From assembly GCA_018882895.1 (NCBI GenBank), contig VERF01000009.1, positions 1 to 56,504 on the forward strand: a DNA stretch of 56,504 nucleotides, in the 5' to 3' direction. This DNA is from Candidatus Kapaibacterium sp. GTDB taxonomy: Bacteria; Bacteroidota; Ignavibacteria; Kapaibacteriales; Kapaibacteriaceae. The position numbers and the translations under genes were made by a program. Shown here piece by piece: positions 1 through 55,406 of this stretch; positions within the stretch are counted from its first letter, which is position 1, and the number at the start of each line of letters is the position of its first letter. A model generated the notes under the pieces. It was not told where the DNA came from. It did no database searches and saw nothing but the letters and a program-made list of their open reading frames with translations.

Positions 1-3000
1 ACCTGTTCCAGCAGGGATGAGCTGACCGAGGATGATGTTCTCCTTCAGTCCCAGCAGCTTGTCCATCTTGGCCGCAGCCGAGGCATCTGCAAGAACACGT
101 GTTGTCTCTTGGAAGGATGCTGCCGAGAGCCACGATTCCGTGGTGAGCGATGCCTGCGTGATACCCAAGAGAAGTGGCTCACCGATGGCTGGTTCGGCAT
201 TGCGGCTCTTAGCCCCTTGCTTGTCACCCTTCTTGAGGTCGGCATTGATCTCGCGCAGAACACGCTTGTCGATGATCTGACCAAACTTGAGCTTCGAGTC
301 GCCCGGATCGGTGACAACCACGCAACCCTTTAGGCGATCGTTCTCATCGCTGAAGCGCATACGGTCAACCTGATCACCCTCGAGGAATGACGCATCACCG
401 GAGTCGGTCACGCGAACCTTTTGGAGCATCTGGCGAACGATCACTTCGATGTGCTTGTCGTTGATCTTCACACCCTGCATGCGGTACACTTCCTGGATTT
501 CATTCACCAGGTAGGCCTGTACCTCGTTGATACCCTTGATGTGCAGAATGTCGTGCGGATTGATCGCGCCTTCCGTCAGACGGTCACCGGCACGCACGAG
601 GTCGCCCTCTTGCACAAGAACGTGACGTCCGATCGGCACTGAGTATTCGCGCTTGAGCTGTCCGTCGAGGGACGTCGTGGCGATCACGCGCGAACCACGC
701 TTCGGCTTTTCGATCGAGATGATACCGTCGATCTCGGTGACGGCTGCAGGGGCCTGAGGCGCACGAGCTTCGAAAAGCTCCGTAACGCGTGGCAGACCGC
801 CCGTAATGTCGCGCAGACGTCCGAGGTCACGTGGCATCTTCACAAGCTTGGAACCGACGGCGACAACTTCTCCGTCGTCGACAACGATCTGTGCACGCGA
901 CGGGATGATGTACGACTGGATCAGCGTGCCTTCATCGTCGACGATTTCGATCGCAGGACTCTTCGTACGGTCACGCGAATCGATAACGATCTTGGTCGTG
1001 TGACCCGTCTGCTCATCGATTGCTTCCTTGAACGTGAGGTTCGGCACAAGGTCACGGTAACGCACGCGACCGGCCTTTTCGGTGATGATCACCGAGTTGT
1101 ACGGATCCCAATCGTAGAGCGTTTCGCCCTTCTTGATTGTCTGTCCGTCCTTGACCTTGAGTTCGGCACCGTACACAACGTCGTACTTGGTGACAACGCG
1201 ATTCGAGCCCGGCTCTACGATGTTGATGACGCCGGCGCGGGAGACCACAACCTCAACGTCTTCCGTTTCACCCGGACAGCTCACCGAACGGATGGCATCG
1301 AACTGGATAAGACCGTCAAACTTGGCAAGCACAAGGCTCTGACTCATCGAGAGCGATGCCGTACCACCGGTGTGGAACGTACGGAGTGTCAGCTGCGTGC
1401 CAGGCTCACCGATCGATTGTGAAGCGATTGTTCCAACGGCTTCACCAGTGTCCACAAGCTGACCTGTGGCCATGTTGCGACCATAGCAGCGGGCGCAGAC
1501 GCCACGTCGTGATTCGCACGTCAGCACGCTGCGGATCATCGCGGCCTCAATGGGGCTGTGTTCGATCGCGTCGGCAATATCCTCGTCGATCGTCTCGCCC
1601 TTCTTGCAGTACACCTTGCCGCTGATTGGATCAACAACGTCGACAAGTGACGTGCGACCAAGAATGCGTTCCTTCAATGGCTCCTTGACGTCTTCACCAT
1701 CTTTCAGGGCGCGCATCTCAACGCCACGGATCGTTCCGCAGTCGTCTTCGGAGATCACCACGTCTTGTGCTACGTCATGCAGACGACGCGTCAGGTAACC
1801 GGCGTCGGCCGTCTTGAGAGCCGTATCGGCAAGACCCTTACGGGCACCGTGAGTCGAGATGAAGTACTCAAGGATTGTCAGACCTTCCTTGAAGTTCGAA
1901 ATGATCGGATTCTCGATCAGTTCGGCTGACGAGGCAGCGGCCGTCTTTTGAGGCTTGGCCATCAGACCGCGCATACCGGCAAGCTGACGGATCTGCTCCT
2001 TCGAGCCCCGTGCCTGCGAGTCGAGCATCATGAAGAACGTGTTGAATCCATCCTTGTTCGAGGCCAGCTCGTTATAGAGCTTGTCAGCAACACGGTTGGT
2101 GGCTGTCGACCACGTATCGATGATCTTGTTGTAGCGCTCGCCTTCGGTGATAACACCGGAGTGATAATAGTCCTCGATCTTGTCGACTTCCTTCTGTGCC
2201 CTATCAATGATCGTGGTCTTTTCAGCAGGTACCACGACGTCTGCGATCGACACGGACAAGCCGCCGCGTGTAGCGGTAAGGAAGCCCGTTTCCTTCAGCT
2301 TGTCGAGGAACTCCACTGTCTTGGCAAGACCGGCCTTACGGAAGCAGTCGGCGATCACCTGACGCAGACGCTTCTTACCGAGCATCTCGTTCATGTAACC
2401 AAGCTCGAACGGAACGATCTTGTTAAAGAGAACACGTCCGGCAGTGGTTTCGACGAGCTTGCCGCCGATGCGGACCTTGATCTTCGCATGCAGCGCGATG
2501 CGACCCGAGTTGTAACCGATCACGACTTCGTCTTCGCTGGAGAAGATCTTGCCTTCGCCCTTGACTCCACCGCGTGCCTTGGTAAGGTAATAGACACCCA
2601 GAACCATGTCCTGCGAAGGAACGGCGATTGGTTCACCGTTCTGCGTGTGCATGATATTGTGTGCCGAGAGGATCAGCAGAAGCGCTTCGAGCTGTGCTTC
2701 GTGACTCAGCGGCACGTGAACGGCCATCTGGTCACCGTCGAAGTCAGCATTGAAAGCCGTCGTCACCAATGGGTGGAGCTGAATAGCCTTGCCCTCAATG
2801 AGCTTCGGCTGGAATGCTTGGATACCCAGACGGTGAAGCGTTGGGGCGCGGTTCAACAGCACCGGATGACCGTCGATCACCGTGTCGAGAATATCCCACA
2901 CCTCGGTGGTCTTCTTTTCGACCTGCTTCTTGGCGCTCTTGACCGTCTTGCAGTGTCCGCGCTCGATGAGCTTACGGATGATAAGGGGCTTGAACAGCTC

Positions 3001-4143
3001 AACGGCCATGTCCTTCGGAAGACCGCACTCGTGCAGCTTCAGCTCGGGACCGACCACGATAACGGAACGACCCGAGTAGTCCACGCGCTTACCGAGCAGA
3101 TTCTGACGGAAGCGGCCTGTCTTACCCTTCAGCGTATCGGCAAGCGACTTGAGCGCGCGCTGCGATTCGCTGCGCACGGCGCGACGTGAGTTGTCGAAGA
3201 GGGCATCGACCGACTCTTGAAGCATACGCTTCTCATTGCGCAAAATCACCTCAGGAGCCTTGATGTCGATCAGGCGCTTGAGACGGTTATTGCGAATGAT
3301 CACCCTGCGATAGAGGTCATTAAGGTCAGAAGTTGCAAACCGGCCACCTTCAAGGGGCACCAGCGGACGCAGATCCGGTGGGATCACCGGAATGATGTCC
3401 AGCACCATCCACTCAGGACGGTTCGGCTCCTTGTGATCGGCCGAGCGGAACGCGTCGAGAATGCGCAGACGCTTGAGAACATCTGCCTTCTTGGCTTGCG
3501 ACATATCATCGCGAGCCGTCTCGCGGAGCTTGAAGTAATCCTCGTCGGCATCAACGCGACGGAGCAGTTCCTTGACGGCTTCACCACCAATGAGGGCGAT
3601 GAACTTGCGTGGGTCCTCGTCGTCCATGTTGCGTTCTTCCGGACGCAGGCTGGCGAGAACTTCCAGGTATTGCTCTTCTGTCAGAAGGTCCTTCTTCTGC
3701 AGGCCGGTCGATCCGGGTTGAACCACCACATATGATTCGTAATACACGATGCGCTCGACGTCCTTGGTCGGCATGCCGATCACGCCAGAGATCTTGCTCG
3801 GCAGTGAACGAAGGAACCAGATGTGGACCACCGGCACGGCCAGCATGATGTGACCCATGCGCTCGCGGCGGACGCTCTTTTGCGTCACTTCGACACCGCA
3901 GCGATCACACACAATGCCCTTGTATCGGATTCGCTTGTACTTACCACATGCGCACTCCCAATCGCGGATTGGGCCGAAGATCTTCTCGCAGAACAGTCCG
4001 TCCTTTTCAGGACGGAATGAGCGGTAGTTGATCGTTTCGGGCTTGGTGACCTCGCCATGCGAACGATTGAGAATGTCATCCGGTGATGAAATGCGGATCG
4101 TAATCGAGCCGTAACCGCGCTTCGGGATGTTTTGGAACTGCAT
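1..4143 (-). CDS. rpoC: RNA polymerase subunit beta' (3' end outside window)
   Basis: Largest catalytic subunit of RNA polymerase. Reading back from ATG at 4143 gives 1381 codons with no stop, so a few dozen C-terminal residues lie beyond position 1. The N-terminus [14 protein letters not shown] is followed by the zinc-ribbon cysteines (CACGKY and CDRCGVEV, roughly residues 66-90). The catalytic Mg-binding motif NADFDGDQM lies near residue 466 (2731-2753). A GGAG sits about 7 nt before the ATG. The gene starts 57 nt after the rpoB stop, the normal rpoBC arrangement, so it should be the distal gene of the ribosomal/RNA polymerase operon. Nothing unusual was seen in the part that is present. 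Confidence 0.98.
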
Positions 4144-4200
4144 CGTGACTCCGAGCTAAAATTCCTTGGTTGACGAATTAATGGACAGTGAACGTCAGGC

Positions 4201-7200
4201 TCAGTCGAGCTTGACATCCAGACACAGACCCTGCAGCTCGCGGATGAGAACGTTGAACGACTCTGGAATTCCAGGCGCCGGCAGGTTCTCGCCCTTGACA
4301 AGGGTCTCGTACATCTTGGCACGACCCTGCACATCGTCTGACTTCAACGTCAGCATCTCCTGCAGAGTATGCGCCGCGCCATAGGCCTCGAGCGCCCACA
4401 CTTCCATCTCCCCGAGACGCTGGCCACCGAATTGGGCCTTACCGCCAAGGGGCTGTTGCGTGATCAGCGAGTATGGTCCGATCGAACGGGCGTGGATCTT
4501 GTCTTCGACAAGGTGAGAAAGCTTCATCATGTAGATGATGCCAACCGTCACCTCATTCTCGAAGGCTTCACCCGAACGGCCGTCATACAGCACGGTCTTG
4601 CCCGTACGTGGAAGTCCGGCCTTCTCGAGATAGTCGCCCACCTGATCCCATGAAGCCCCGTCGAAGATCGGCGTGGCGAAATGGACACCCAATTCACGGC
4701 CGGCCCATCCGAGAGCTGTCTCGTAGAGCTGACCCAGATTCATACGTGAAGGCACGCCGAGCGGATTGAGGACGATATCCACCGGACGTCCGTTCGGAAG
4801 GAACGGCATGTCCTCAGTCGGCACGATCTTCGATACGATACCCTTATTACCGTGGCGACCGGCCATCTTGTCACCAACCTGAAGCTTGCGCTTCTTGGCA
4901 ACATAGACCTTGGCCATCTGCTGGATACCGGGCTGAAGCTCATCACCGGCGGCGATCTTGTTGCGCTCGATGCGGGCATCGAGAATGATCGCGTTACGGC
5001 GTGTTTCGAAGTTCTCCATGAGCTTGCGTACAAGCTTCATGATCTTCTTGTCGGCTACCCAGTCCTGCTCGAGACTGGTGTTCGATGGCAGGAAGGATCC
5101 TGCTTCGAACTTGGCCAGCATGTCCTTTGCCACCAACTTGCTTCCGCTGCGGAAAACGACCGTGTCATTGTTCGAGCGAACCCCGAGTGATGTCTCACCT
5201 TCTACAAGCTGACCGAGACGCTCAATGCAGTCGATATCCAAAGCACGAAGTGCCTGATTTTCCCGACGCGTAATCAGGTCTTGACGCTTCTTTTCTTCAA
5301 GGCGGAACTCGCTGTCACTGGTAAGGACGCGGCGAGCGAAGAGCTTGGTGTTGATGACCGTGCCCTTGAGTCCCGGAGGTGCCTTAAGCGATACGTCCTT
5401 GACGTCACCGGCCTTATCACCGAAGATGGCGCGAAGCAGCTTCTCTTCCGGCGTCGGATCGGTCTCGCCCTTCGGCGTGATCTTTCCGATCAGGATGTCT
5501 CCTTCGCGGATCTTGGCACCGATGCGGACGATTCCGCGCTCGTCGAGATCCTTGGTGGCCTCTTCGCTGACGTTCGGGATTTCGCGTGTGAATTCTTCTT
5601 CGCCGCGCTTGGTGTCGCGAACCTGAAGTGTATACTCTTCGATATGGATCGACGTGAAGACATCTTCAGCCACCATGCGCTCGCTCAGAACGATGGCGTC
5701 TTCGAAGTTGTATCCACGCCATGGCATGAAGGCAACCATCACGTTGCGTCCAAGTGCAAGCTCGCCCTTCTCGGTCGAGGCGCCGTCGATGATCGGCTGA
5801 CCCTTCTTGACGCGCTGTCCGACCGACACGATCGGCTTGTGGTTGATGCTTGTGTCTTGGTTGGTGCGATAGAACTTCTGCAGGTTGTATGTGACCGTGC
5901 GATCGCCATCGAACGAGATCAGCTTCTCATCGGCACTGCGCTTGTCATCATACACGATGCGCACAAAGTCAGCGCATACGTAATCGACCACACCATCATC
6001 CTCGGCCAGCACCAGCGCACGTGAGTCACGCGCTACGCGTGCCTCCATGCCGGTTCCAACGATCGGGGCTTCAGGACGCAGCAAAGGCACGCCCTGACGT
6101 TGCATGTTCGAGCCCATGAGCGCACGGTTGGCGTCATCGTGCTCAAGGAACGGGATCAGCGATGCAGCAGGAGATGTGATCTGGTCCGTGCTGACTTCCA
6201 TGTAGTTGACCTCGGTAGGCGCAACGACCTTGTAGTCGCCGCTGACGCGGGCCTTTACAGTGTCACCGGCGATTCGCCCCTTCTCATCCGTTGCCGTTGA
6301 AGCAGGGATGATGATCAGGCCCTCTTCCTTGTCAGCCGGAAGGAACTCTACATCCTCCGTTACCACGCCGTTGACGACCTTGTGGTACGGTGTCTCGATA
6401 AAGCCGAACTTGTTTACACGGGCATGGATGGCCAGCGAGGAGATCAGACCGATGTTCGGACCTTCCGGCGTTTCGATCGGGCAGAGGCGGCCGTAGTGCG
6501 TGTAATGAACGTCACGAACCTCAAAGCCAGCGCGCTCACGCGTCAGACCACCGGGTCCAAGGGCCGATGTACGGCGCTTGTGAGTGATCTCCGACAGCGG
6601 ATTGGTCTGGTCCATGAACTGCGACAGCTGATTTGTGCCGAAGAACTGGTTGATGACGCTTGTGATGGTGCGAGCATTGACCAGTTCGCTCGGGGTGACG
6701 TTCTCACTGTCACGCACCGAGAGGCGCTCCTTGATCGTGCGCGCCATACGCGTAAGACCAAGGTTAAAGGTCGACTCCAGCTGCTCGCCCACCGTGCGCA
6801 CGCGACGGTTGGCAAGGTGATCGATATCATCGACCGGGACCTTCGCATCACGCACATCGATGAGATACTTTACGATAGCCACGATGTCGTCGACCGTTAG
6901 CGTCGTAACATCGAGCGGCACCGTCATGGCAAGCTTTTCGTTGATGCGATAACGGCCCACGACTCCGAGATCATAGCGCTTCGGATTGAAGAAGAGCTTC
7001 TCGAGCAGGCCCCATGCCGTGTCCAGATCCGGCGGATCTGAAGAGCGGAGCTGACGATAGATGGTCTCAAGAGCGTCTTCGCGAGTGCGTGCCGTGTCCT
7101 TGGCAAGGGTCTTGGCGATGATCGGCTCGTCGTTCGGGTTCTCGTACTTGTAGACACGGATCGAATCGACCGTCGAGGCCTGAAGCGCTGTAAGCAGTGC

Positions 7201-8028
7201 TTCGTCAAGGATAAGGTCACGCTGAGCAATGATCTCGCCCGTGTTCATATCCACCGCATCAGCTGCGATCCGACGGCCAAGGTGCTCGTCGGCGAGCTTC
7301 TTGACCGGGACGTCTGCTGAAAGGTCGAAGAGATTCAACAGGTCTTCGTCGCTTGAGTACCCGAGGGCACGAAGCAGCGTCGTTACAGGGAACTTCTTCT
7401 TGCGATCGATGTAGGCATACATCACATCATGGATGTCGGTCGTGAATTCGACCCACGATCCCTTGAACGGAATGATGCGCGCCGAGAAGATCTTCGTGCC
7501 GTTCGGGTGAATCGCCTCATCAAAGAAGCAACCCGGCGAACGGTGCAGCTGAGCAACGATGACCCGCTCAGCACCGTTGATGATGAACGTGCCGCGAGGG
7601 GTCATGGCAGGGATCTGACCGAGGTATACCTCTTGGTCGATCGCCTCAATGTAGTCTTCCGATGACGGATCGGCCTTCGACGAAAGGCGAAGCTTCGCCT
7701 TCAGCGTCTTGGCGTACGTCAGCTCACGTTCGCGACATTCTTCTTCAGAGTACTTGGGCTTTTCGACGAAGTACTCAAGGAAGCTCAACTCGTACACGCC
7801 TGAGTTGTCCTCGATCGGGAAGTTGCTTTCAAATGCCCGCTGAAGGCCGATGAAGCGGCGATCGGTGATGGCAACGTCCTCTTGGAGAAACTCGTGGAAG
7901 GAATCGATCTGGATCCCGAGTAGATCCGGATATGTCGATTCCGACTCGATCTTTCCGAACGAGACGCGCTCGCGCACCCGTTGTAGCGGGAGCGTGTACA
8001 ATGCTGTTTCTGAGTTCAAACCATTCAT
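4201..8028 (-). CDS. rpoB: RNA polymerase subunit beta
   Basis: Second catalytic subunit of RNA polymerase, 1275 aa, full length for the family. The rifampicin pocket (about residues 463-490) reads FGTNQLSQFMDQTNPLSEI followed by THKRRTSALGPGG. The positions equivalent to E. coli Q513, D516, H526 and S531 keep the sensitive residues. The C-terminal clamp region (GGQRLGEMEVWALEAYGAA) is intact. It lies 176 nt after rplL, and that gap holds two strong hairpins; rpoC follows 57 nt later. The operon order is rplK-rplA-rplJ-rplL-rpoB-rpoC. Confidence 0.99.
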   Translation of the reverse strand: MNGLNSETALYTLPLQRVRERVSFGKIESESTYPDLLGIQIDSFHEFLQEDVAITDRRFIGLQRAFESNFPIEDNSGVYELSFLEYFVEKPKYSEEECRERELTYAKTLKAKLRLSSKADPSSEDYIEAIDQEVYLGQIPAMTPRGTFIINGAERVIVAQLHRSPGCFFDEAIHPNGTKIFSARIIPFKGSWVEFTTDIHDVMYAYIDRKKKFPVTTLLRALGYSSDEDLLNLFDLSADVPVKKLADEHLGRRIAADAVDMNTGEIIAQRDLILDEALLTALQASTVDSIRVYKYENPNDEPIIAKTLAKDTARTREDALETIYRQLRSSDPPDLDTAWGLLEKLFFNPKRYDLGVVGRYRINEKLAMTVPLDVTTLTVDDIVAIVKYLIDVRDAKVPVDDIDHLANRRVRTVGEQLESTFNLGLTRMARTIKERLSVRDSENVTPSELVNARTITSVINQFFGTNQLSQFMDQTNPLSEITHKRRTSALGPGGLTRERAGFEVRDVHYTHYGRLCPIETPEGPNIGLISSLAIHARVNKFGFIETPYHKVVNGVVTEDVEFLPADKEEGLIIIPASTATDEKGRIAGDTVKARVSGDYKVVAPTEVNYMEVSTDQITSPAASLIPFLEHDDANRALMGSNMQRQGVPLLRPEAPIVGTGMEARVARDSRALVLAEDDGVVDYVCADFVRIVYDDKRSADEKLISFDGDRTVTYNLQKFYRTNQDTSINHKPIVSVGQRVKKGQPIIDGASTEKGELALGRNVMVAFMPWRGYNFEDAIVLSERMVAEDVFTSIHIEEYTLQVRDTKRGEEEFTREIPNVSEEATKDLDERGIVRIGAKIREGDILIGKITPKGETDPTPEEKLLRAIFGDKAGDVKDVSLKAPPGLKGTVINTKLFARRVLTSDSEFRLEEKKRQDLITRRENQALRALDIDCIERLGQLVEGETSLGVRSNNDTVVFRSGSKLVAKDMLAKFEAGSFLPSNTSLEQDWVADKKIMKLVRKLMENFETRRNAIILDARIERNKIAAGDELQPGIQQMAKVYVAKKRKLQVGDKMAGRHGNKGIVSKIVPTEDMPFLPNGRPVDIVLNPLGVPSRMNLGQLYETALGWAGRELGVHFATPIFDGASWDQVGDYLEKAGLPRTGKTVLYDGRSGEAFENEVTVGIIYMMKLSHLVEDKIHARSIGPYSLITQQPLGGKAQFGGQRLGEMEVWALEAYGAAHTLQEMLTLKSDDVQGRAKMYETLVKGENLPAPGIPESFNVLIRELQGLCLDVKLD

Positions 8029-8118
8029 GGAGACAGCTCCTGACGGCTAGTAAAAAGTTCTGTTTCGTTCTGATGGTCGAAATGACATCACGCTGACACC
8101 TGTTTCAACCGTCAGAAC

Positions 8119-8136
8119 GCCCCCTTGCAAGGGGCT
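8119..8136. repeat. Inverted pair of the dispersed word AGCCCC(C)TTG
   Basis: GCCCCCTTG is followed at once by CAAGGGGCT, an almost perfect palindrome in the rplL-rpoB gap. Each half is a copy of the short word that recurs across the window (see findings). As RNA it would form a GC-rich stem. Uptake sequences of Neisseria and Pasteurellaceae also occur as inverted pairs in such positions; the parallel is only an inference. Confidence 0.6.
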
Positions 8137-8153
8137 TTCTATTTACGACAACG

Positions 8154-8181
8154 CCCGAGACGGCATTTCTGCCGCCTCGGG
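8154..8181 (-). terminator. Hairpin between rplL and rpoB, possible attenuator
   Basis: CCCGAG-A-CGGCA, loop TTTC, TGCCG-C-CTCGGG: eleven paired bases with one internal A-C mismatch, starting about 24 nt after the rplL stop. No U-tract follows in the direction of transcription, so complete termination is unlikely. In E. coli the same gap carries a partial terminator and RNase III site that set the ratio of L7/L12 to RpoBC. A similar role here is inference. Confidence 0.5.
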
Positions 8182-8204
8182 GCTGTTCAACTGCACTTGT
8201 TCAA

Positions 8205-8585
8205 TTACTTGAGCGTGACCTTGGCGCCGGCTTCCTCAAGCTTCTTCTTGAGGGCATCTGCGTCTGCCTTGGCAACGCCTTCCTTGACGAGCTTTGGTGC
8301 GCCTTCAACCAGGTCCTTAGCTTCCTTGAGACCAAGACCCGTGACTTCACGAACCACCTTGATGACGTTGAGCTTCTGAGCTCCGCCTTCGGTGAGTTCG
8401 ACGTCGAACTCAGTCTTCTCTTCGGCTGCGGCTGCTGGAGCTGCTCCAGGAGCGACACCGGCGACCATCATAGGAGCTGCGGCCGATACACCGAACTTGT
8501 CTTCAAGGGCCTTCTTGAGATCAGCTGCCTCAACGAGGGTGAGGTTTCCGATCTTCTCAACGAGTTCTTCAACGATTGCTGACAT
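8205..8585 (-). CDS. rplL: Ribosomal protein bL12 (L7/L12)
   Basis: Stalk protein that recruits translation GTPases, 126 aa, normal length. The N-terminal dimerisation helices ([20 protein letters not shown]) lead into an Ala/Gly-rich hinge near residues 40-55. The conserved C-terminal domain ends in [14 protein letters not shown]. It follows rplJ by 87 nt, as in most bacteria. Confidence 0.99.
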
Positions 8586-8672
8586 TGGATTTCTCCACGA
8601 ATGAATGATGAATGTTCCGATTGTGATGGATGGTGACGCGCCCCTTCGGAAGCGTCACGCCTTGGCCAACCC

Positions 8673-9197
8673 TTAGGCGGCCTTCTTCTTTGCGACCTCT
8701 TCGATGATCGATGCCACGTCCCGCATGACGGCATTCAGGCTGCCAACGATACCCGTGATCGGGGCGTTGATGCTTCCCATAATGCCGGCAATGAGGTCCT
8801 CGCGCGTCGGAAGTTCCGACACCTGCTTGAGCTGCGTTGGGCCGAAGTACATGCCTTCGACGACAGCGACCTTGAGACGAGGCTTTTCGAGCTTCTCAAA
8901 GTGCTGACGGATCACCTTCGCAGGGGCAACAGGATCGCTCGATCCGAGGATCATCGCCGTCTGACCTGCCAACTTCGTGTCTTCGATCTCGTAGCCACCG
9001 ACCTCAGCCAGAGCACGCACCAAAAGGGTATTCTTGGCTACCCTCATAGTGATTCCCTTTGCACGCAGATCACGGCGAAACGCCTGATCCTGTGCGACTG
9101 TCATGCCGGTGAAATCCACGAAATACAGACCCGAGCCGTTGCGGATCATCTCCGCCAATTCGGCGACGACTGCCTGCTTTTGTTCTTTCGTGATCAT
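8673..9197 (-). CDS. rplJ: Ribosomal protein uL10
   Basis: Base of the L12 stalk, 174 aa. It begins MITKEQKQAVVAELAEMI and has the family signature LYFVDFTGMTV near residues 24-35. The C-terminal helix that binds L12 dimers is present. It is preceded by a structured leader (9226-9263) that could be the L10-L12 autoregulatory site. Confidence 0.98.
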   Translation of the reverse strand: MITKEQKQAVVAELAEMIRNGSGLYFVDFTGMTVAQDQAFRRDLRAKGITMRVAKNTLLVRALAEVGGYEIEDTKLAGQTAMILGSSDPVAPAKVIRQHFEKLEKPRLKVAVVEGMYFGPTQLKQVSELPTREDLIAGIMGSINAPITGIVGSLNAVMRDVASIIEEVAKKKAA

Positions 9198-9225
9198 AAC
9201 CTTGTTGATTGTTAGAGTCGCCGAT

Positions 9226-9263
9226 CCGTCAACCTGTCAAAGACAGTGTTAGAAGCGTGACGG
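9226..9263 (-). promoter_or_regulatory. Structured rplJ leader, candidate L10-L12 binding site
   Basis: In the rplA-rplJ gap, an outer CCGTCA/TGACGG stem encloses an inner CTGTC-TTT-GACAG hairpin. In many bacteria L10(L12)4 represses translation by binding a kinked leader at this location. The location and stem support the call; the consensus was not tested. Confidence 0.45.
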
Positions 9264-9290
9264 TTCGACTGTTGCGTAATAGGTTCGGAA

Positions 9291-9989
9291 TTATTGGTCG
9301 GCACCGACGGACTTCGCATCAACGCGAACGGCCGGGCCCATCGTTGAACTGAACGTGATGCTCTTGACATACTTACCCTTTGAAGAGGCAGGCTTCGAGC
9401 GCACGACTGTGCCAACGAATGTTTGGAGGTTTTCCAGCAGCTTGTCGGTAGAGAAAGAGCACTTGCCAACAGCAGCATGAATGTTACCTGCCTTGTCGAC
9501 GCGGAACTCGATCTTACCTGCCTTGACCTCGGCAACGGCCTTGGCAACGTCAAACGTCACCGTGCCGCTCTTCGGGTTCGGCATCAGGCCGCGAGGACCA
9601 AGCACGCGACCAAGCTTTCCGACCTCGCCCATCACGTCCGGTGTGGCAATGATGATGTCGATGTCTGCCCAGCCCCCTTGCAGCTTCTCAATGTAGTCGG
9701 AGAAGCCGGCGTAATCAGCTCCCGCATCGAGAGCCTCCTTGTCCTTTGGTGCCTTGGCGATGACCAGCACGCGCACCGTCTTTCCCGTGCCGTGTGGTAG
9801 AGCCACCGTGCCGCGAACCAGCTGATCGGCCTTGCGAGGATCGACGCCGAGGTTCATCGCAACGTCGAATGACTCGTCGAACTTTGCCGTGGCGTTCTGC
9901 TTGACCAGCTCAACGGCCTTCTTGATGTCAAAAGACTGAGTGCCGTCAAACGACTTGGCGGCCTTTGTAAAACGCTTCCCTTGTGCCAT
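9291..9989 (-). CDS. rplA: Ribosomal protein uL1
   Basis: L1 protuberance protein, 232 aa. ATG at 9989 ([18 protein letters not shown]) is chosen over the upstream in-frame ATG at 10016. It matches the family N-terminus, and an AAAGGAT purine stretch lies about 10 nt ahead. The signature [12 protein letters not shown] is present near residues 132-143. It sits between rplK and rplJ. Confidence 0.98.
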
Positions 9990-10084
9990 GGAAGGATATC
10001 CTTTCGTGTTGTGCAAGCGGCACCGCAGCGCGGCACCTCCAACAGTGGTTTGAGTTCGTGAAAGTTGTTCGAGAAGGGGGCTTC

Positions 10085-10510
10085 TCAGTCTTGGACCGTG
10101 ATCCCCATCGAGCGGGCCGTACCGGCGATCATGCTGATCGCACTCTCTTCGGTGTGACAGTTCAGATCCTGCATCTTGATCTTGGCGATCTCTGCAAGCT
10201 GAGCACGGTTGACCTTGCCAACCTTGTCACGATGAGGTGCGGCCGATCCCTTGTCGAGTCCGGCAGCCTTGATCAGAAGCACTGGGGCCGGAGGCGACTT
10301 TATCTCGAACGTAAAGCTCTTGTCACTGAAGAACGTGACGAGCACTGGCAGGATCATGCCCGGCTGCTTGGCCGACTTGGCATTGAACTGCTTGACGAAT
10401 TCCATACCTGCAAGACCGCGCTGACCGAATGCCGGTCCTACTGGCGGTGCCATCGTGGCTTCTCCAGCCTTGAGCTGGAGCTTGAAGGTACCCATGACCT
10501 TTTTTGCCAT
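10085..10510 (-). CDS. rplK: Ribosomal protein uL11
   Basis: GTPase-centre protein, 141 aa, normal length. [20 protein letters not shown] and [11 protein letters not shown] are diagnostic. The C-terminal RNA-binding domain ends [11 protein letters not shown] short inverted repeat, GAGAAG-GGGG-CTTCTC (10071-10086), overlaps the stop codon and contains a copy of the dispersed word. Confidence 0.99.
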
Positions 10511-10565
10511 GTCAAATTTCCTTTCGTGGTCTGCGGCAGGTGTTGCCTGCCTCCCACATCATGTG

Positions 10566-11126
10566 TTAATGATTCTCGATCTCTACCTGATGGAAGTCCA
10601 ATTCGATCGGCGTCTTACGCCCAAGAATTCCAACTTCCACCTTCAGCTTTTGCTTCTCTACGTTGACTTCCTTTACCGTGCCGTTGAAGTTGGCGAACGG
10701 TCCGTCGATCACCTTCACCGGGTCGCCCTCACGGAACGACGTCTCGGCAGTAGTGATGTCCTTTCGCTCCTCAACTCGGCCAAGAATACGGTCGACCTCT
10801 TCCTTCTGCAGTGGCTGCGGCCCGGAGGTCGTGCCGGCAAACGAAACGATCGAAGGAAGCGACAGAATGATGTCGCGAACTCGGGTATCAAGAGACACTT
10901 CGATCAGAATGTAACCGGGTAGGAAATTCTTCACTCGCGTGCGACGCTTTCCCGACCTGACCTCGAAGACCGTCTCGGTGGGGATGATCACGCTAAGAAC
11001 GCGGTTCTCAAGACCAAGTCGCGTCATCTCGTTCTCGATGGCAGTCTTCACCCGAGCTTCATGGCCGGTGAAGACCCGCAAGGCGTACCAGCGAGGTTCT
11101 GGAAGTTGTAGTGCGACGTCGGACAT
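10566..11126 (-). CDS. nusG: Transcription termination/antitermination factor NusG
   Basis: Couples RNA polymerase to Rho or the ribosome, 186 aa. ATG at 11126 (MSDVALQLPEPRWYALRVFT) is chosen because it begins just before the NGN domain. The longer reading from 11351 would overlap secE in another frame. The NGN signature RWYALRVFTGHE is followed by a C-terminal KOW motif (GDPVKVIDGPFANFNGTVKE). It starts 14 nt after the secE stop. Confidence 0.97.
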   Translation of the reverse strand: MSDVALQLPEPRWYALRVFTGHEARVKTAIENEMTRLGLENRVLSVIIPTETVFEVRSGKRRTRVKNFLPGYILIEVSLDTRVRDIILSLPSIVSFAGTTSGPQPLQKEEVDRILGRVEERKDITTAETSFREGDPVKVIDGPFANFNGTVKEVNVEKQKLKVEVGILGRKTPIELDFHQVEIENH

Positions 11127-11140
11127 CGTGGCTATCCCAA

Positions 11141-11323
11141 TCAATAAATGAACTCGAGCAGGAAGACCACTCCGCGGTCGATCGCAAACACCAGTGCTGC
11201 AAAGACCAGACACGTGGCTACGACCACCATGGTGCTCTCTCTGAGCTGCTCCTGCGTCGGCCAGGAGACCTTCTTCATCTCCTTGCTGACGTCCGAGAAA
11301 AATCCCCGAATCGAATCGATCAT
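11141..11323 (-). CDS. secE: Preprotein translocase subunit SecE
   Basis: Small stabilising subunit of the SecYEG channel, 60 aa with a single transmembrane helix. The amphipathic helix contains FFSDVSKEMKKVSWPTQEQL with the family motif KKVSWPT. The membrane segment VVVATCLVFAALVFAI follows. The secE-nusG pair is the usual arrangement. Confidence 0.97.
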   Translation of the reverse strand: MIDSIRGFFSDVSKEMKKVSWPTQEQLRESTMVVVATCLVFAALVFAIDRGVVFLLEFIY

Positions 11324-11364
11324 CGCTCGTCCTCCGATCTGCGTCTGTCATTCATAAAACTTTG

Positions 11365-11437
11365 CACGGGCGGCAGGATTCGAACCCGCGGCCTGCGGTT
11401 TTGGAGACCGCTGCTCTACCAGCTGAGCTACACCCGT
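11365..11437 (-). tRNA. tRNA-Trp (CCA)
   Basis: 73 nt. The acceptor ACGGGTG pairs with CGCCCGT. The anticodon loop CTCCAAA gives CCA, and the T loop GGTTCGAATCC is canonical. It lies 41 nt upstream of secE and only 19 nt after tRNA-Thr, where tuf is usually found. Confidence 0.97.
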
Positions 11438-11456
11438 ACGTGATTGTCAAAGCAAG

Positions 11457-11529
11457 AGCTGATGACCGGGATTGAACCGGTGACCTCCACCTTACCAAGG
11501 TGGTGCTCTACCAACTGAGCTACATCAGC
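11457..11529 (-). tRNA. tRNA-Thr (GGT)
   Basis: 73 nt. The acceptor GCTGATG pairs with CATCAGC. The anticodon loop TTGGTAA gives GGT. The T loop is GGTTCAATCC. Confidence 0.97.
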
Positions 11530-11607
11530 GACATGGTCTGTCACAGACACCACAGCCCTTCAGCGCACAGGCCAATGGCCCGACGCCTCAGGGACAGTTG
11601 AAGTCTG

Positions 11608-11680
11608 AGCGGGAGACGAGACTCGAACTCGCGACCAACAGCTTGGAAGGCTGTGACTCTACCAACTGAGTTACTCCCGC
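11608..11680 (-). tRNA. tRNA-Gly (TCC)
   Basis: 73 nt. The acceptor GCGGGAG pairs with CTCCCGC. The anticodon loop CTTCCAA gives TCC. The T loop is AGTTCGAGTCT. Confidence 0.97.
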
Positions 11681-11715
11681 TTGAACAACCATTCTGCTTT
11701 CGCAGATGGTAGCTG

Positions 11716-11798
<83 letters not shown>

Positions 11799-11813
11799 CA
11801 ACAACAGAGCCGG

Positions 11814-11845
11814 CAAAGTTAGGGGTCGGGGGAAAACTATGCAAA
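11814..11845 (-). promoter_or_regulatory. Bacteroidota-type promoter of the tRNA/rpo operon
   Basis: On the minus strand TTTG (11842-11845), 20 nt, then TAACTTTG (11814-11821), an exact TAnnTTTG -7 box. Start of transcription would fall about 9 nt before the tRNA-Tyr 5' end. The -33 TTTG / -7 TAnnTTTG pair is the known primary sigma consensus of Bacteroides and Flavobacterium. Confidence 0.65.
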
Positions 11846-11847
11846 TG

Positions 11848-11867
11848 CGGGGGGCGAATTTCCCCCG
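11848..11867 (-). terminator. Hairpin after carA
   Basis: On the minus strand CGGGGGAAATTCGCCCCCCG, a six-bp G/C stem beginning about 20 nt after the carA stop. It overlaps the start of the tRNA-operon promoter region, so it probably insulates carA from the tRNA transcript. Only a weak T-run follows. Confidence 0.5.
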
Positions 11868-11887
11868 AGGTTGCCTGCAAAGCCCCT

Positions 11888-13015
11888 TTACCGCATCATG
11901 GCCAAAAACTGATCGAAGAGGTAGTCAGAGTCGTGCGGCCCCGGGCTGGCCTCGGGGTGGTACTGCACAGCAAAGGCGGGCACGTCCCGGAGGGCGACGC
12001 CGGCACAGGTGTCGTCGTTGAGGTTCACATGGGTCATTTCGGCGCTCGCCGGCAATGTGGCAGGGTCGACCGCAAATCCATGGTTCTGCGAGGTGATCTC
12101 AATGGCACCGGTGCGCAGATTCTTGACCGGGTGATTGGCACCGCGGTGCCCGAACTTCAGCTTGTACGTAGAAGCACCGACGGCCAGAGAAAGGATTTGA
12201 TGACCTAGGCAGATGCCAAAGATCGGCTTCCTGCCGAGTAGACCCTTGACGCAGTGGATCGCCGATGTTACCGCGGCAGGATCTCCGGGGCCGTTGCTGA
12301 GAAACACTCCGTCGGGATTCATCGCCAGGATGTCTTCAGACGACGTCGTTGCCGGAACGACCGTGACGTTGAAGCCGAAATGATGCAGGCGACGCAGGAT
12401 GTTCCGCTTGATGCCGAAGTCGAGGGCGACAACGTGCTTGCGCTCGCCGTCAATGCGAACTTCCGGCCGGTAGTCCCACTCCCCCGCTGTTGAACCTTCG
12501 TACAGGTAGGGGGCTTTCGTGGTCACCAGCGGCGTAAGATCAAGACCGTTCATGGACGGAACGTTGCGCGCTCGCTCAACAAGCTCGCGACCGTCGAGGT
12601 TCTCCCCGTGGGCGATCACGCAGCGCATCGCCCCCTCCGAGCGGAGGATACGAACGATCATGCGGGTGTCAACGCCTTCAATGCCGGCAATCCCCTCGGA
12701 TTCGAGATAGGACTGCAGTGAACCCGTAGCCCGATAGTTCGATACGACCGGTGAGAGCTCGTGCACCACAAGACCCGAGGCCTGAATGCGGTCGGACTCG
12801 ACGTCGTCGGGGTTGACCCCGTAGTTGCCGATGTGCGGATAGGTGAAGGTGACGATCTGCCCCTTGTAGGACGGGTCAGTGAGAATCTCCTGATACCCCG
12901 ACATCGAGGTGTTGAAGACCAGCTCCCCGGTGCATTCAGCCCCGATCGCCCCAATGGCCGTACCCTCGACAATGACGCCGTTTTCAAGGGCAAGTATGGC
13001 CGTGGGACGGGGCAT
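11888..13015 (-). CDS. carA: Carbamoyl-phosphate synthase small subunit
   Basis: Glutaminase subunit that feeds ammonia to CarB for arginine and pyrimidine synthesis, 375 aa, normal length. The N-terminal CarA domain begins [13 protein letters not shown]. The class I amidotransferase domain carries the nucleophile in [14 protein letters not shown] (Cys near residue 268) and the His/Glu pair in [12 protein letters not shown] near the C-terminus. No carB is adjacent. A TATTTTCG -7 box lies 36 nt upstream. Confidence 0.97.
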
Positions 13016-29986: not shown

Positions 29987-30392
29987 GATCGGGTGCTCCT
30001 GTGTCAGAAACGCCGCGTTCGGAGGCCAGGCGGGCGGCCTTGGCTAGGGCCTCGTAACGGTGGCGGAGTTCATCAAGACTCTTCTCTTCCATTTCCTCGA
30101 GGTCGAGCATCCGGTTATGGGCCCCTTCGGTGACCCGGATCAGCTCGTCGAGCTTCAGATGCAGAGCCTCGGTATCACGATTCTGCGTGTTCTGGATCAA
30201 GAACACCATGAGGAACGTGATGATCGTGGTTGCTGTGTTGATGACAAGTTGCCAGGTGTCACTGAACCCAAACAGAGGGCCAGAGGCAAGCCACAGAACG
30301 ATAACCAGCATCGCCCATGCGAAGGTCACCGGACGTCCGGCAAAACGTGAAACGGCCTTGGCGAATCTGCCGTAGATCGTTGGTCTGCTCAT
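29982..30392 (-). CDS. Low-affinity iron permease family membrane protein
   Basis: 136 aa from ATG 30392, overlapping the upstream stop as ATGA. It has two membrane helices (VTFAWAMLVIVLWLASGPLF and VINTATTIITFLMVFLIQNT), then the conserved QNTQNRDTEALHLKLDELIR and a charged C-terminal coiled stretch. This matches the family named after fungal Fet4. In bacteria, iron transport by these short members is unproven; the conserved tail suggests a regulatory or small-channel role. Confidence 0.85.
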   Translation of the reverse strand: MSRPTIYGRFAKAVSRFAGRPVTFAWAMLVIVLWLASGPLFGFSDTWQLVINTATTIITFLMVFLIQNTQNRDTEALHLKLDELIRVTEGAHNRMLDLEEMEEKSLDELRHRYEALAKAARLASERGVSDTGAPDL

Positions 30393-30799
30393 GTCGCTTT
30401 CTTTGGTTGGCGCGGAATTGCCAGCCACGAGGCCACGGGAATCAGCACGATGGCGCTGACCATGAGCCAGGTTGGATGCGGAAATTGAAAGAAATTCATC
30501 ACGGTCGCTGCAAGAACAAAGGCACCTATAAGCAGAGAAATCATCTTTTCAGCCCCTCCTGCGATTCGAATGCCCACGTAACTGCCGACAAATGATCCGG
30601 CACTCCACGCCACGAGAAGGGACACCAACTGTTCAAAGGAAAGGCTCTTGGCGTCGAGCAAGACCTCATGATTCTCATCAGGTATGAGACTGCCGCCGGA
30701 AAGGACGGCATGTCCAGCAAACTCAACGGCCATAATGACCAGGCTACTGGCGACTACACCGGTGACCACAGCCAAAACACGTCGCAGAATCGGATTCAT
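30389..30799 (-). CDS. Small membrane protein of unknown function
   Basis: 136 aa with four predicted membrane helices (VLAVVTGVVASSLVIMAVEF, LVSLLVAWSAGSFVGSYVGI, LLIGAFVLAATVMNFFQF and LMVSAIVLIPVASWLAI). The N-terminus MNPILRRVLAVV is basic, which fits an inward N-terminus. I do not recognise a characterised family. It is coupled by ATGA to the iron-permease-like gene. Confidence 0.8.
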   Translation of the reverse strand: MNPILRRVLAVVTGVVASSLVIMAVEFAGHAVLSGGSLIPDENHEVLLDAKSLSFEQLVSLLVAWSAGSFVGSYVGIRIAGGAEKMISLLIGAFVLAATVMNFFQFPHPTWLMVSAIVLIPVASWLAIPRQPKKAT

Positions 30800-30869: not shown

Positions 30870-30918
30870 TGGAATGGCAAACGCCCGACCCCACACGGTG
30901 GGATCGGGCGCTGCGTGA
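30870..30918 (-). repeat. 49-bp direct repeat, copy A, with terminator hairpin
   Basis: Identical in all 49 bases to 33008-33056. On the minus strand it contains GCCCGATCCCACCGTG then TGGGGTCGGGC, a strong stem followed by GTTTGCC, placed 18 nt after the stop of the T9SS gene at 30937. It therefore serves as that gene's terminator and forms the left border of the module. Confidence 0.9.
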
Positions 30919-30936
30919 AAACTTAACAGAGAAGAT

Positions 30937-32334
30937 TTATCGCACAAGCACAGCAATGGTCGAAATCTCAGAACCATCAGACAACAAACATCTAACAAAC
31001 ACACTTCCTCGAACCGAGCTCGGCAGTGGTATCTGCACATCAGCGAAGGGTGCTGGGGGACATGTGCCGCGGAAAACCTCTGCCCCAGCAACATCATAGA
31101 TCACAATACGGTTGCGCTGACTCTTGGAACCGCTCAGTGTGAGTAGGAGATTCCCATCGACTGACCGTGCTAGCAGACTATTTGCGTACTTCGTGGATGC
31201 GGCGAGATCCTGTCTTTGCTTCTCCAGTGGTTCAGGTAAGAGTGTAGAGAGAATCCAGTTTGTGTCTGCCTTAGCGCGATCAAAACAACGCTGCGTGTAC
31301 TTCATCAGCCCTATCGATGGCATCAGCCGATCGATCTCATCTGCACGCCCTATCGGAAGCATCACATTAGCAAACACAGCGGGAAGGCAGGAGTCGCCCC
31401 CTAGCTCGGAATAGTGCATTCGGAGATATTCATCTACATACGATGCCTGCATCGTGTCCCATGCAGTTCTGCCAGTCGGATACCAATCATTATGAGCAAA
31501 CCAGCGAGGCATATTCATCAGTGGGGTCGTATGTTCATCGTAGAGCAAATGAGCGACATTCCACTCTGATTGAAGCTTACTATGCTGCAGACCATACGGA
31601 GTAGATCCATACCGATACGGCAATGGTCGGATGTAAACCCTTCGATTTGCGAACTGGTCCGGCAGGGCCAGTCTGTGCACGCATACATCTGGGTTCGTCC
31701 CCTTACGGTTCAGGATAATGCAATCGGGTGTCGCATACAGTTGCACCGAATCGAGCAGCAGCAACCGCTCGCGCGTACTCGCGTCAACGAGTTCGAGCGC
31801 GACCTCGACAGTGTCTCTGACATCACTTGGCAGTATGACATTGTTGACATCCCGCCAGTTAGTCATGTTGCAGACCGAGCCCTCTCTGGTCAGCCTTACC
31901 CTGTTAGTGAATAGAGGTATCGTAGAAATCTGTCGGACGAACGTTAAGGAGGATCCCTCACGGTAGCTAAACACTTGTGTTCGAGCAGCCTCCCCAAGAT
32001 TCCTATCAGGCCCGGGCGTTGGGATCCCACGTAACTTGCAGCAGTCTCCTCGTGAAAAGAACTCCTCGCGAGTCATTTCTAAGAAGACAAACTGCGTATC
32101 GCTTGGGTAGTCAATGCGAACTTCTCCGTATGACCATTCGACGACTGTCGAATCAAAGTCGTCCTTAATGTATGCCAACCAGTTGTGTCTCGCGTACTCC
32201 TTCTTAAAGGAGCAGCGAAGCGCTTCCTGATGCTGCTGTGCAGAAGCGAGAATCGCAAACGCCATGTGTGTTAGAACGACCAACGTCACGAAAATGATCC
32301 TGACGATATGCGAGAAGTTGAATATCCTATTCAC
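30937..32334 (-). CDS. Secreted protein of unknown function with T9SS sorting domain
   Basis: 465 aa from GTG 32334, chosen because GGAGGTTCGTT stands directly before it and the codon overlaps the upstream stop. In-frame ATG 32352 would bury that site. The signal peptide (VNRIFNFSHIVRIIFVTLVV to LASAQ) is followed by about 350 residues with no motif I recognise. The last ~80 residues (LLLTLSGSKSQRNRIVIYDV to SEISTIAVLVR) look like a T9SS sorting domain. GC content is near half by eye, lower than the flanks. It lies downstream of the cysteine-rich gene and is probably co-exported or partnered with it (inference). Confidence 0.8.
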   Translation of the reverse strand: MNRIFNFSHIVRIIFVTLVVLTHMAFAILASAQQHQEALRCSFKKEYARHNWLAYIKDDFDSTVVEWSYGEVRIDYPSDTQFVFLEMTREEFFSRGDCCKLRGIPTPGPDRNLGEAARTQVFSYREGSSLTFVRQISTIPLFTNRVRLTREGSVCNMTNWRDVNNVILPSDVRDTVEVALELVDASTRERLLLLDSVQLYATPDCIILNRKGTNPDVCVHRLALPDQFANRRVYIRPLPYRYGSTPYGLQHSKLQSEWNVAHLLYDEHTTPLMNMPRWFAHNDWYPTGRTAWDTMQASYVDEYLRMHYSELGGDSCLPAVFANVMLPIGRADEIDRLMPSIGLMKYTQRCFDRAKADTNWILSTLLPEPLEKQRQDLAASTKYANSLLARSVDGNLLLTLSGSKSQRNRIVIYDVAGAEVFRGTCPPAPFADVQIPLPSSVRGSVFVRCLLSDGSEISTIAVLVR

Positions 32335-32815
32335 AACGAACCTCCGTACCATCAGTATCAGCGCACGGTGAGTTAAATCTATCCCGAAGACAAGCTTGAC
32401 GTGAGGCCTCTACCTGTGGGCATTCGGCCCCCCATTGCCGCCTGCATGGCGCGAAGTTCGGCGATGCGCATCCACTTGTGGGCTTGACATAGTGATTATA
32501 GTTGCATTGCATAGGGGTCAGACACTGTATGGAATTCGCACAGACTATGCGTTGCGCAGACATGCCAAGACTAGCCTGACTATAGCAGTAGATATAACAA
32601 TTCACTGGACACTTTGCTTGTGATACATAGCAGTGACTCAAAGGGTACCAGTAGTCACCCACCTTCACCTCGAATGGGGTTCCACACATGAGCTGCACAT
32701 CCTGTCCATCTGTTTTTGGGTTTGCTGTGGCTGCAGTTGCCTGGGGTGAGCCAATGGAGACGTCGAAAACGAGCGAGCCGACGACCATTACGAGCATGAG
32801 AAGCAATCGTTTCAT
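32327..32815 (-). CDS. Small secreted cysteine-rich protein
   Basis: 162 aa. MKRLLLMLVMVVGSLVFDVS is a clear signal peptide, with likely cleavage near ATA-ATA at 28-30. The mature part of about 130 residues holds 14 cysteines (for example CPVNCYIYCYSQ, CANSIQCLTPMQC and CASPNFAPC), an even number suggesting disulfides. There is no T9SS domain and no family I recognise. GAAGGAG precedes the ATG, which overlaps the stop of a 17-codon ORF (ATGA). Its stop overlaps the next gene's start by 8 nt. Base composition is AT-richer than the neighbours. Confidence 0.8.
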   Translation of the reverse strand: MKRLLLMLVMVVGSLVFDVSIGSPQATAATANPKTDGQDVQLMCGTPFEVKVGDYWYPLSHCYVSQAKCPVNCYIYCYSQASLGMSAQRIVCANSIQCLTPMQCNYNHYVKPTSGCASPNFAPCRRQWGAECPQVEASRQACLRDRFNSPCADTDGTEVRCE

Positions 32816-32865
32816 TTGTGCACTCCTTCATGGACAGTTAGCGAAACATCTTCATGGCAAAGCAT
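32812..32865 (-). CDS. 17-residue leader ORF (MLCHEDVSLTVHEGVHK)
   Basis: ATG at 32865 stands 6 nt after a perfect AAGGAGG, a strong ribosome site. After 17 codons the stop overlaps the ATG of the cysteine-rich gene (ATGA). The peptide has no signal or membrane segment. It may be a translational leader that couples the module's expression, or a short peptide in its own right. The stretch GGAGGTTCGTT-ATG recurs as GGAGGTTCGTT-GTG at the T9SS gene start. Confidence 0.6.
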   Translation of the reverse strand: MLCHEDVSLTVHEGVHK

Positions 32866-32927
32866 AACGAACCTCCTTGGAAAAGACTAAAATCTGGGAC
32901 GTACTCTGCGACCCCGTATCTGCAAAT

Positions 32928-32935
32928 CAAAGCTA
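32928..32935 (-). promoter_or_regulatory. -7 box for the secreted module
   Basis: TAGCTTTG on the minus strand is an exact TAnnTTTG, 63 nt before the leader ATG. No TTG is found 20 nt upstream, so the -33 element is missing or weak. Confidence 0.4.
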
Positions 32936-33007
32936 TAATGGAATGTGTCACGGTTATGTCATAATTCAGCTTCGCGTCCTTGCGCGCCCTGCTGCGGGCA
33001 CATGTTG

Positions 33008-33056
33008 TGGAATGGCAAACGCCCGACCCCACACGGTGGGATCGGGCGCTGCGTGA
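33008..33056 (-). repeat. 49-bp direct repeat, copy B, groEL terminator
   Basis: Same 49 bases as 30870-30918. Lying 25 nt after the groEL stop, its hairpin (GCCCGATCCCAC/GTGGGGTCGGGC) is the natural groEL terminator. The duplicate 2.1 kb away encloses the leader, cysteine-rich and T9SS genes. Confidence 0.9.
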
Positions 33057-33081: not shown

Positions 33082-34764
<1,683 letters not shown>

Positions 34765-54560: not shown

Positions 54561-55017
54561 AGGGGCTGTCTTCCTCGCGGCACTCGCCGTCCTCTTATCC
54601 CTCGGCTGCAGCTCAGCCAAACGTATTCGCGTTGATGCGCCCCCTTCCGTCAGCTCGATCATTGATCGGGCGCAAGATCTCATTGGTACGCCGTACTGCA
54701 CGGCCGGCGTGACTCCGGACTGCTTCGACTGCTCGGGCTTTGTTGGCTACTGCTTCGTCCCCACCGGCGTTCCCCTGCCTCGCACCTCTCGCGAGCTCTT
54801 TAACGTGGGGCAAAACGTCAGCCGATCTGACCTCGCCGCCGGCGACCTCGTCTTCTTCTCAACCTCCAACAGCATCATCAACCACGTCGGCATCTTCCTC
54901 GCCGATACAAGGTTCATCCACAGCTCCACCTCCAACGGCGTCATGATCTCCTCCCTTGAGGAGCCGTATTGGAAGCAACGGTATAAAGGCGCGAGGCGTG
55001 TGACGAGTGACAAGTGA
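54553..55017 (+). CDS. NlpC/P60 lipoprotein endopeptidase
   Basis: 154 aa. The signal MRKGAVFLAALAVLLSLGC ends in a lipobox (SLGC). The C40 peptidase domain has the nucleophile Cys in FDCSGFVGYCF (about residue 60), and NHVGIFLADTRFIHSST supplies the His residues. It cuts peptidoglycan stem peptides. The final codons (VTSDK and the TGA) are formed from the first heptads of the repeat array, so its 3' end has been overwritten or extended by the repeat. Confidence 0.92.
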   Translation: MRKGAVFLAALAVLLSLGCSSAKRIRVDAPPSVSSIIDRAQDLIGTPYCTAGVTPDCFDCSGFVGYCFVPTGVPLPRTSRELFNVGQNVSRSDLAAGDLVFFSTSNSIINHVGIFLADTRFIHSSTSNGVMISSLEEPYWKQRYKGARRVTSDK

Positions 55018-55060
55018 CAAGTGACAAGTGACGAGAGACAAGTGACAAGTGACGAGTGAC
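55000..55060. repeat. Degenerate heptad array, left arm
   Basis: Eight complete 7-bp units plus a part unit: GTGACGA, GTGACAA x3, GTGACGA, GAGACAA, GTGACAA, GTGACGA, GTGAC. Only two positions vary. On the opposite strand the unit is TCWCTYG, the same as in the right arm, so the two arms form a long imperfect inverted repeat. Confidence 0.92.
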
Positions 55061-55072
55061 GGGCATAATGGC

Positions 55073-55138
55073 CCCGCGGCCTTGGCCGTGGGTGCGCATA
55101 ATCGTCATCGCGCAATGGATTCCCGCCTTCGCGGGAAT
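55073..55138. repeat. Two hairpins between the heptad arms
   Basis: CCCGCGGCC-TT-GGCCGTGGG (55073-55092, nine pairs with one G-T) and ATTCCCGC-CTTC-GCGGGAAT (55119-55138, eight perfect pairs). The second looks like the widespread ATTCCCGC...GCGGGAAT palindromes dispersed in many bacterial genomes (REP/MITE-like). Downstream of nlpC they could also stop transcription. In the remainder of the 389-base gap up to hsp20, only a weak promoter candidate is seen. Confidence 0.7.
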
Positions 55139-55147
55139 AACGATCGG

Positions 55148-55223
55148 TCTCTTGTCTCTCGTCTCTCGTCTCTCGTCTCTCGTCACTCGTCACTTGTCTC
55201 TCGTCTCTTGTCTCTCGTCACTG
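55148..55223. repeat. Degenerate heptad array, right arm
   Basis: Ten complete TCWCTYG units and a part unit: TCTCTTG, TCTCTCG x4, TCACTCG, TCACTTG, TCTCTCG, TCTCTTG, TCTCTCG, TCACTG. It is inverted relative to 55000-55060 and ends about 180 nt before hsp20. Confidence 0.92.
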
Positions 55224-55406
55224 CCACTCTGTCAGCCCCCTTTGCCGCACAACTGTCGTATTGACATCGACTTACGCTGGCGTTATGTCATTACGGCAGA
55301 TTTTCAGGTTTGGCACGATTTTCCAAGATGTTCGTCATCACCGCAGTTCCACCAATGGCCATTGGGAGCACAAATGTCATTCCTCATCACCACTAGGAGA
55401 CCGACA

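Follow-up and report, generated by a model that had tools for sequence, protein, structure and literature searches.

A gene pair between identical repeats behind groEL

The window (the whole stretch of DNA analysed, 56,504 nucleotides) comes from the 2.57 Mb genome of an uncultured Kapabacteria bacterium, here G000, and carries behind groEL a 49-bp repeat, a leader ORF with two genes and a second copy of the repeat, followed by a membrane-protein gene (Table 1). The leader ORF, the Cys-rich gene and the T9SS-type gene are coupled through overlapping starts and stops. The GC content of the Cys-rich and T9SS genes is 0.511, compared with 0.572±0.027 for 183 ORFs of G000 (3rd percentile), and their codon score falls within the lowest 1% of G000 ORFs; the pair is foreign-looking by composition. 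When the ORFs of the insert were read and scanned, no transposase, integrase or other recombinase was found. An earlier note on this DNA had described identical repeats at these two positions, with a coupled, AT-rich block of leader ORF, 14-cysteine secreted protein and T9SS cargo between them and neither transposase nor integrase in the block. The repeats proved exact in both position and sequence, and the gene content, the composition and the lack of mobility genes were likewise confirmed.

Table 1. Features of the window and loci at which genes lie between direct repeats in G000 and related genomes
Locus	Feature	Coordinates	Strand	Remarks
Window	Membrane-protein gene	30389..30799	(-)	Directly 3′ of groEL in congeners without the insert
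Window	Direct repeat, copy 2	30870..30918	(-)	18 bp past the stop codon of the T9SS cargo, before the membrane-protein gene
Window	Insert	30919..33007	(-)	2,089 bp, GC 0.506; absent behind groEL in G002, G003, G004, G007 and G010
Window	T9SS-type cargo, 471 aa	30937..32352	(-)	Family at full length only within the Kapabacteria order
Window	C-terminal beta-sandwich of the cargo, residues 391-471	30940..31182	(-)	Probable T9SS sorting domain
Window	Secreted Cys-rich protein, 162 aa, 14 Cys	32327..32815	(-)	Divergent family, conserved Cys positions
Window	Leader ORF, 17 codons, MLCHEDVSLTVHEGVHK	32813..32866	(-)	Overlaps the start of the Cys-rich gene (ATGA)
Window	Direct repeat, copy 1; hairpin just downstream of groEL	33008..33056	(-)	49/49 identical to copy 2
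Window	groEL	33082..34710	(-)	Its 3′ flank is the putative target
Window	Empty carA 3′-end site	11785..11945	(-)	Single diverged copy of the 34 bp of G009
L060 (G001:C62)	Antisense gene (967 aa) behind groEL, flanked by two related hairpins	7358-10222		Unrelated to the G000 insert
L087 (G015:C26)	miaB, Cys-rich gene, T9SS gene, 162-bp copy of the miaB 3′ end, HAD gene	6913-9577		
L188 (G000:C7)	366-aa gene flanked by 158-bp copies of the selD 5′ end (start)	378-1782		
L192 (G000:C11)	Septu PtuA/PtuB flanked by identical 37-bp copies of a glycosyltransferase 3′ end	2267-4544		Just before asnB
L197 (G000:C16)	1,016-aa T9SS gene between identical methyltransferase-end copies of at least 127 bp	1-3964		Contig begins within the repeat
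L218 (G009:C106, 20001-40000)	T9SS-type 633-aa and 214-aa genes between 34-bp copies spanning the carA stop	9615-12337		

The 49-bp repeat folds as a strong hairpin (-30.7 kcal/mol), with G-U in the stem and no more than TTTGCC behind it. From its position behind groEL we infer that it is a terminator; a terminator consensus scan of the window did not list it, and an Rfam search gave no match. The hairpin core, for which 0 chance matches are expected, has no further match in the window. Recurrence of the 49-mer elsewhere in the genome, which the earlier note had raised, was not seen: with up to 3 mismatches allowed, the 49-mer and the hairpin core occur in G000 at these two places only, ruling out a genome-wide hairpin family. 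An assembly artefact is unlikely, as the independent assembly of G009 carries its own hairpin pair.

The groEL 3′ flank in related genomes

Ten congeners were compared at groEL; the 3′ flank of G005, whose contigs are interrupted both at the hairpin and farther downstream, lies outside the comparison. The membrane-protein gene lies within ~100 bp of groEL in three of the ten (G002, G004 and G007), groEL is followed by tatD in G003 and G010, and an iron-permease gene comes after it in G006. The earlier note had presumed relatives lacking the genes at this flank, and such gene-less sites do exist. Their hairpins are unlike those of G000, with G003 carrying one copy of the G001-type hairpin. The two related hairpins of G001 itself have no other copy in that genome, while G008 has one hairpin followed by a 995-aa PKD/T9SS gene and a 658-aa OmpA gene. 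Because the contents of the groEL 3′ flank differ across congeners, or are missing altogether, it is an insertion hot spot.

G009 (Candidatus Kapaibacterium, groEL locus on VEQR01000009) carries a cargo gene 69% identical to that of G000, without the Cys-rich gene, between a hairpin pair of its own. The hairpins are identical over the core within each genome and differ in loop and end points between the two, so that either one old insertion was followed by gene conversion or there were two insertions. Under the first of these, an old insertion or tandem gain, gene conversion or selection for termination would have prevented the two hairpins from diverging, and the 49-bp identity would not stem from insertion at all. 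This explanation draws on the observations that the G000 and G009 cargo genes are mutual closest relatives, at an identity falling in the range of the neighbouring genes, that the spacing from cargo stop codon to hairpin is nearly equal in the two genomes, and that the copies are identical only within each genome. It leaves unexplained, however, the same architecture without hairpins at carA, miaB, Septu and other sites (below), and we regard it as possible but rather unlikely.

The cargo family

The family of the 471-aa protein was found at full length in 28 of 123 genomes, in this order only, with a patchy distribution and 1-5 copies. A Cys-rich partner often precedes the T9SS gene, in several genera, and its conserved cysteines align at 13-24% identity. 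PF18962 (Por_Secre_tail) matches 6 of 19 aligned family members (best 2.6e-8), the window protein staying below threshold and having no Pfam match; its C-terminal strands appear in a low-confidence model and its signal peptide was judged by eye. AlphaFold models of the Cys-rich and T9SS proteins are poor (pLDDT 36-38). The cargo family resembles proteins with a T9SS C-terminal sorting domain (PF18962) in having a related C-terminal domain, but differs from them in its N-terminal 350 residues, which no family in Pfam, NCBIfam or PDB covers. The Cys-rich and T9SS pair is a predicted, undescribed two-gene surface module, patchily distributed and confined to this order, and is best explained as accessory cargo rather than as the mover.

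Similar brackets at other sites

A family-guided search for direct repeats scoring at least 60 bits was performed across 45 family genes and 164 control ORFs. Brackets were found around 8/45 family genes and 2/164 control ORFs (Fisher 8.6e-5, with the cut-off picked after the family values had been seen). Three of the eight family brackets (L064, L131 and L132) do not represent copied target but repeated promoter or start regions belonging to tandem paralogues, and the statistic is therefore weakened. The clearest case among the family-guided brackets is miaB in G015, where the copies are identical at 159 of 162 positions; at the near-empty site in G016, the miaB and HAD genes converge with 6 bp between them.

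A second scan, independent of the cargo family, yielded further brackets. Their contents are diverse (Table 1) and include a Septu defence system identified by PADLOC as an adjacent PtuA ATPase (1.8e-160) and PtuB HNH (3.6e-84). A Cys-rich gene and an 826-aa T9SS gene lie between 43-bp hairpins in G010, and G012 has a 347-bp copy of a gene end 3 kb away. Since the contig of the methyltransferase case starts inside the repeat, repeats of this kind may cause assembly breaks and an undercount.

The empty counterpart of one bracket lies in the window itself. At carA, 35 bp in the window correspond to 2,721 bp in the collinear G009 contig, where 2,655 bp lie between the copies, and the order in G009 is carA, 34 bp, insert, 34 bp and native downstream sequence. 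The empty and filled carA sites form a clean pair and are a textbook target duplication. In G001 the carA 3′ end is followed by another gene, of 396 aa, and no repeat is present there.

The repeats differ in sequence and length between sites (34-162 bp), with no common att core. Hairpins as a dedicated recombination site were looked for in the glycosyltransferase, carA, selD and methyltransferase brackets, giving none, in a weak test that covered one strand and missed the window's own stem. The scan also gave matches in two other orders, in one other genus of the family and in E. coli, and these were repeats within genes or between paralogues, or enclosed no gene. About 5 family-independent cases came from ~0.9 Mb and 0 from the 0.25 Mb of control sequence; these figures are compatible with equal rates, the control being too small for a statement on enrichment. 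Other gene-sized indels in syntenic stretches have no repeat, and bracketing therefore marks only a part of the gains. The earlier note had read the locus as the gain or swap of a gene block at a terminator. Gain with target duplication is borne out by the empty flanks, the composition and the carA and miaB sites; a special role of the terminator is not, most other brackets lying at coding ends without a hairpin.

How the insertion may have arisen

Our best reading of the locus is insertion with long target duplication, to which we assign a probability of roughly 0.64; for its mechanism we infer the copying or joining of captured DNA. At a break or stalled fork immediately beyond a gene end, a captured fragment would be joined on or copied in, and synthesis would restart 34-162 bp back on the original template, creating a second target copy. 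The copied piece would usually span the gene 3′ end or a hairpin, leaving the target gene intact and providing the new transcription unit with its own end; this probably explains the survival of such events.

Comparison of 10 inserts revealed neither terminal inverted repeats nor a common end motif, the best agreement being 8-9 of 14 in the terminal 40 bases. Ku protein was found in 0 genomes of the genus and in 1 of 60 relatives, and its absence from the genus speaks against Ku-dependent NHEJ capture. Taken together, the lack of shared inverted ends, the varied repeats, the lack of an internal recombinase and the lack of Ku argue against transposons, a single integrase and Ku-type joining. 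A dedicated Kapabacteria pathway, which would capture fragments of one or two genes where conserved genes end and copy 34-162 bp of target, serving many cargo types (surface modules, defence systems) with no element-encoded recombinase or end signal, is a speculative proposal that we hold to be unlikely.

The main rival to insertion with target duplication is circle integration, the model put forward for transposed genes in Arabidopsis, in which a cassette leaves as a circle through recombination of the repeats on its two sides and enters another cell's genome by homologous recombination at a matching gene end, the brackets being scars of a single crossover. Direct repeats of gene ends around gene-sized inserts would be expected from such events, as in PMC2869330, and circle integration would also account for the 159/162 identity of the miaB copies and for the identity of copies within a genome. 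It can account for the pattern, though not for how the pattern began, as it needs a donor already bearing the same target end and leaves the first bracket unexplained; moreover, the 49-mer and its core hairpin are absent from the rest of G000. We consider it improbable.

Minimal mobile elements, described in Neisseria, hold variable genes between conserved genes and contain no mobility genes. The stretch that separates groEL from the gene after it resembles them in holding different genes between the same conserved neighbours: a Cys-rich and T9SS pair in G000, T9SS in G009, PKD/T9SS and OmpA in G008, the 967-aa gene in G001 and nothing in G002, G004 and G007. It could thus be a swap site whose contents are exchanged by homologous recombination in the flanking genes. 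Such exchange predicts seamless joints, however, and duplicated pieces of target are not expected of a minimal mobile element, making this explanation quite unlikely.

IS1634 is known to make target duplications that are long and variable, and gene 3′ ends are frequent targets of tyrosine recombinases. A transposase or integrase acting in trans, moving small non-autonomous cassettes and making the target copies, would suit the preference for gene 3′ ends, the 1.2-3.8 kb units and the 34-51 bp repeats of several cases, but is very doubtful given insert ends with no common motif or inverted repeat and repeats whose sequences bear no relation from site to site and whose lengths span 34 to 162 bp, unlike the att site of one integrase.

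Relation to known systems

Insertion with long target duplication has been described in Helicobacter pylori (Nobusato et al. 2000, Gene 259:99), according to the passages on it in PMC1643837, PMC4978471 and PMC3031569. In these accounts, a gene-sized insert lies between long, variable direct copies of the target that are duplicated only in the insert-bearing strain, and the insertions, linked mainly to restriction-modification genes, are thought to be independent of an element-encoded transposase. The Kapabacteria cases share the long, variable target copies and the lack of a transposase or integrase in the insert; they differ in cargo (T9SS/Cys-rich modules, Septu and others), in phylum and in often lying at gene 3′ ends. 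The earlier note had called the locus a candidate for an undescribed system, with genes of no recognised family. This holds for the cargo family, which has no named relative, but not for the insertion, for which H. pylori offers a precedent (PMC1643837, PMC3031569).

Other likenesses are less close. Transposed genes in Arabidopsis are flanked by genic direct repeats of 30-290 bp, whose sequence is present at the orthologous empty site (PMC2869330). These resemble the present brackets in having genic repeats around moved genes, but they are eukaryotic and often have a parent copy in the same genome (PMC2869330), unlike the window cargo, which has none. In Haloquadratum, strain-specific blocks occupy exact positions by an unexplained mechanism, and some indels are flanked by direct repeats; these repeats, however, are 4-20 bp long and were read as deletions, and in the main class DNA is replaced, not duplicated (PMC3119063). 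Unlike IS elements and transposons, the inserts have no terminal inverted repeats or conserved ends, and unlike integrative elements at gene 3′ ends they have no encoded recombinase and no common att core.

A little-understood kind of insertion, known mainly from Helicobacter, thus appears to be at work in this Kapabacteria lineage. By what route bacterial chromosomes gain single genes when no mobile element is in sight is still an open question, for which the H. pylori report, as relayed in the accounts cited above, gave no mechanism. A second, unrelated lineage with several cases, filled and empty pairs and varied cargo, including a defence system, provides junctions on which mechanisms can be tested from sequence only, and identical repeats flanking accessory genes can mark recent gains in uncultured genomes.

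Repeats of a different kind also occur in the window, at 54986-55236, where arrays of 7-bp units (GTGACAA, GTGACGA and similar) stand in inverted arrangement; similar short intergenic arrays are present in G001 and G009.
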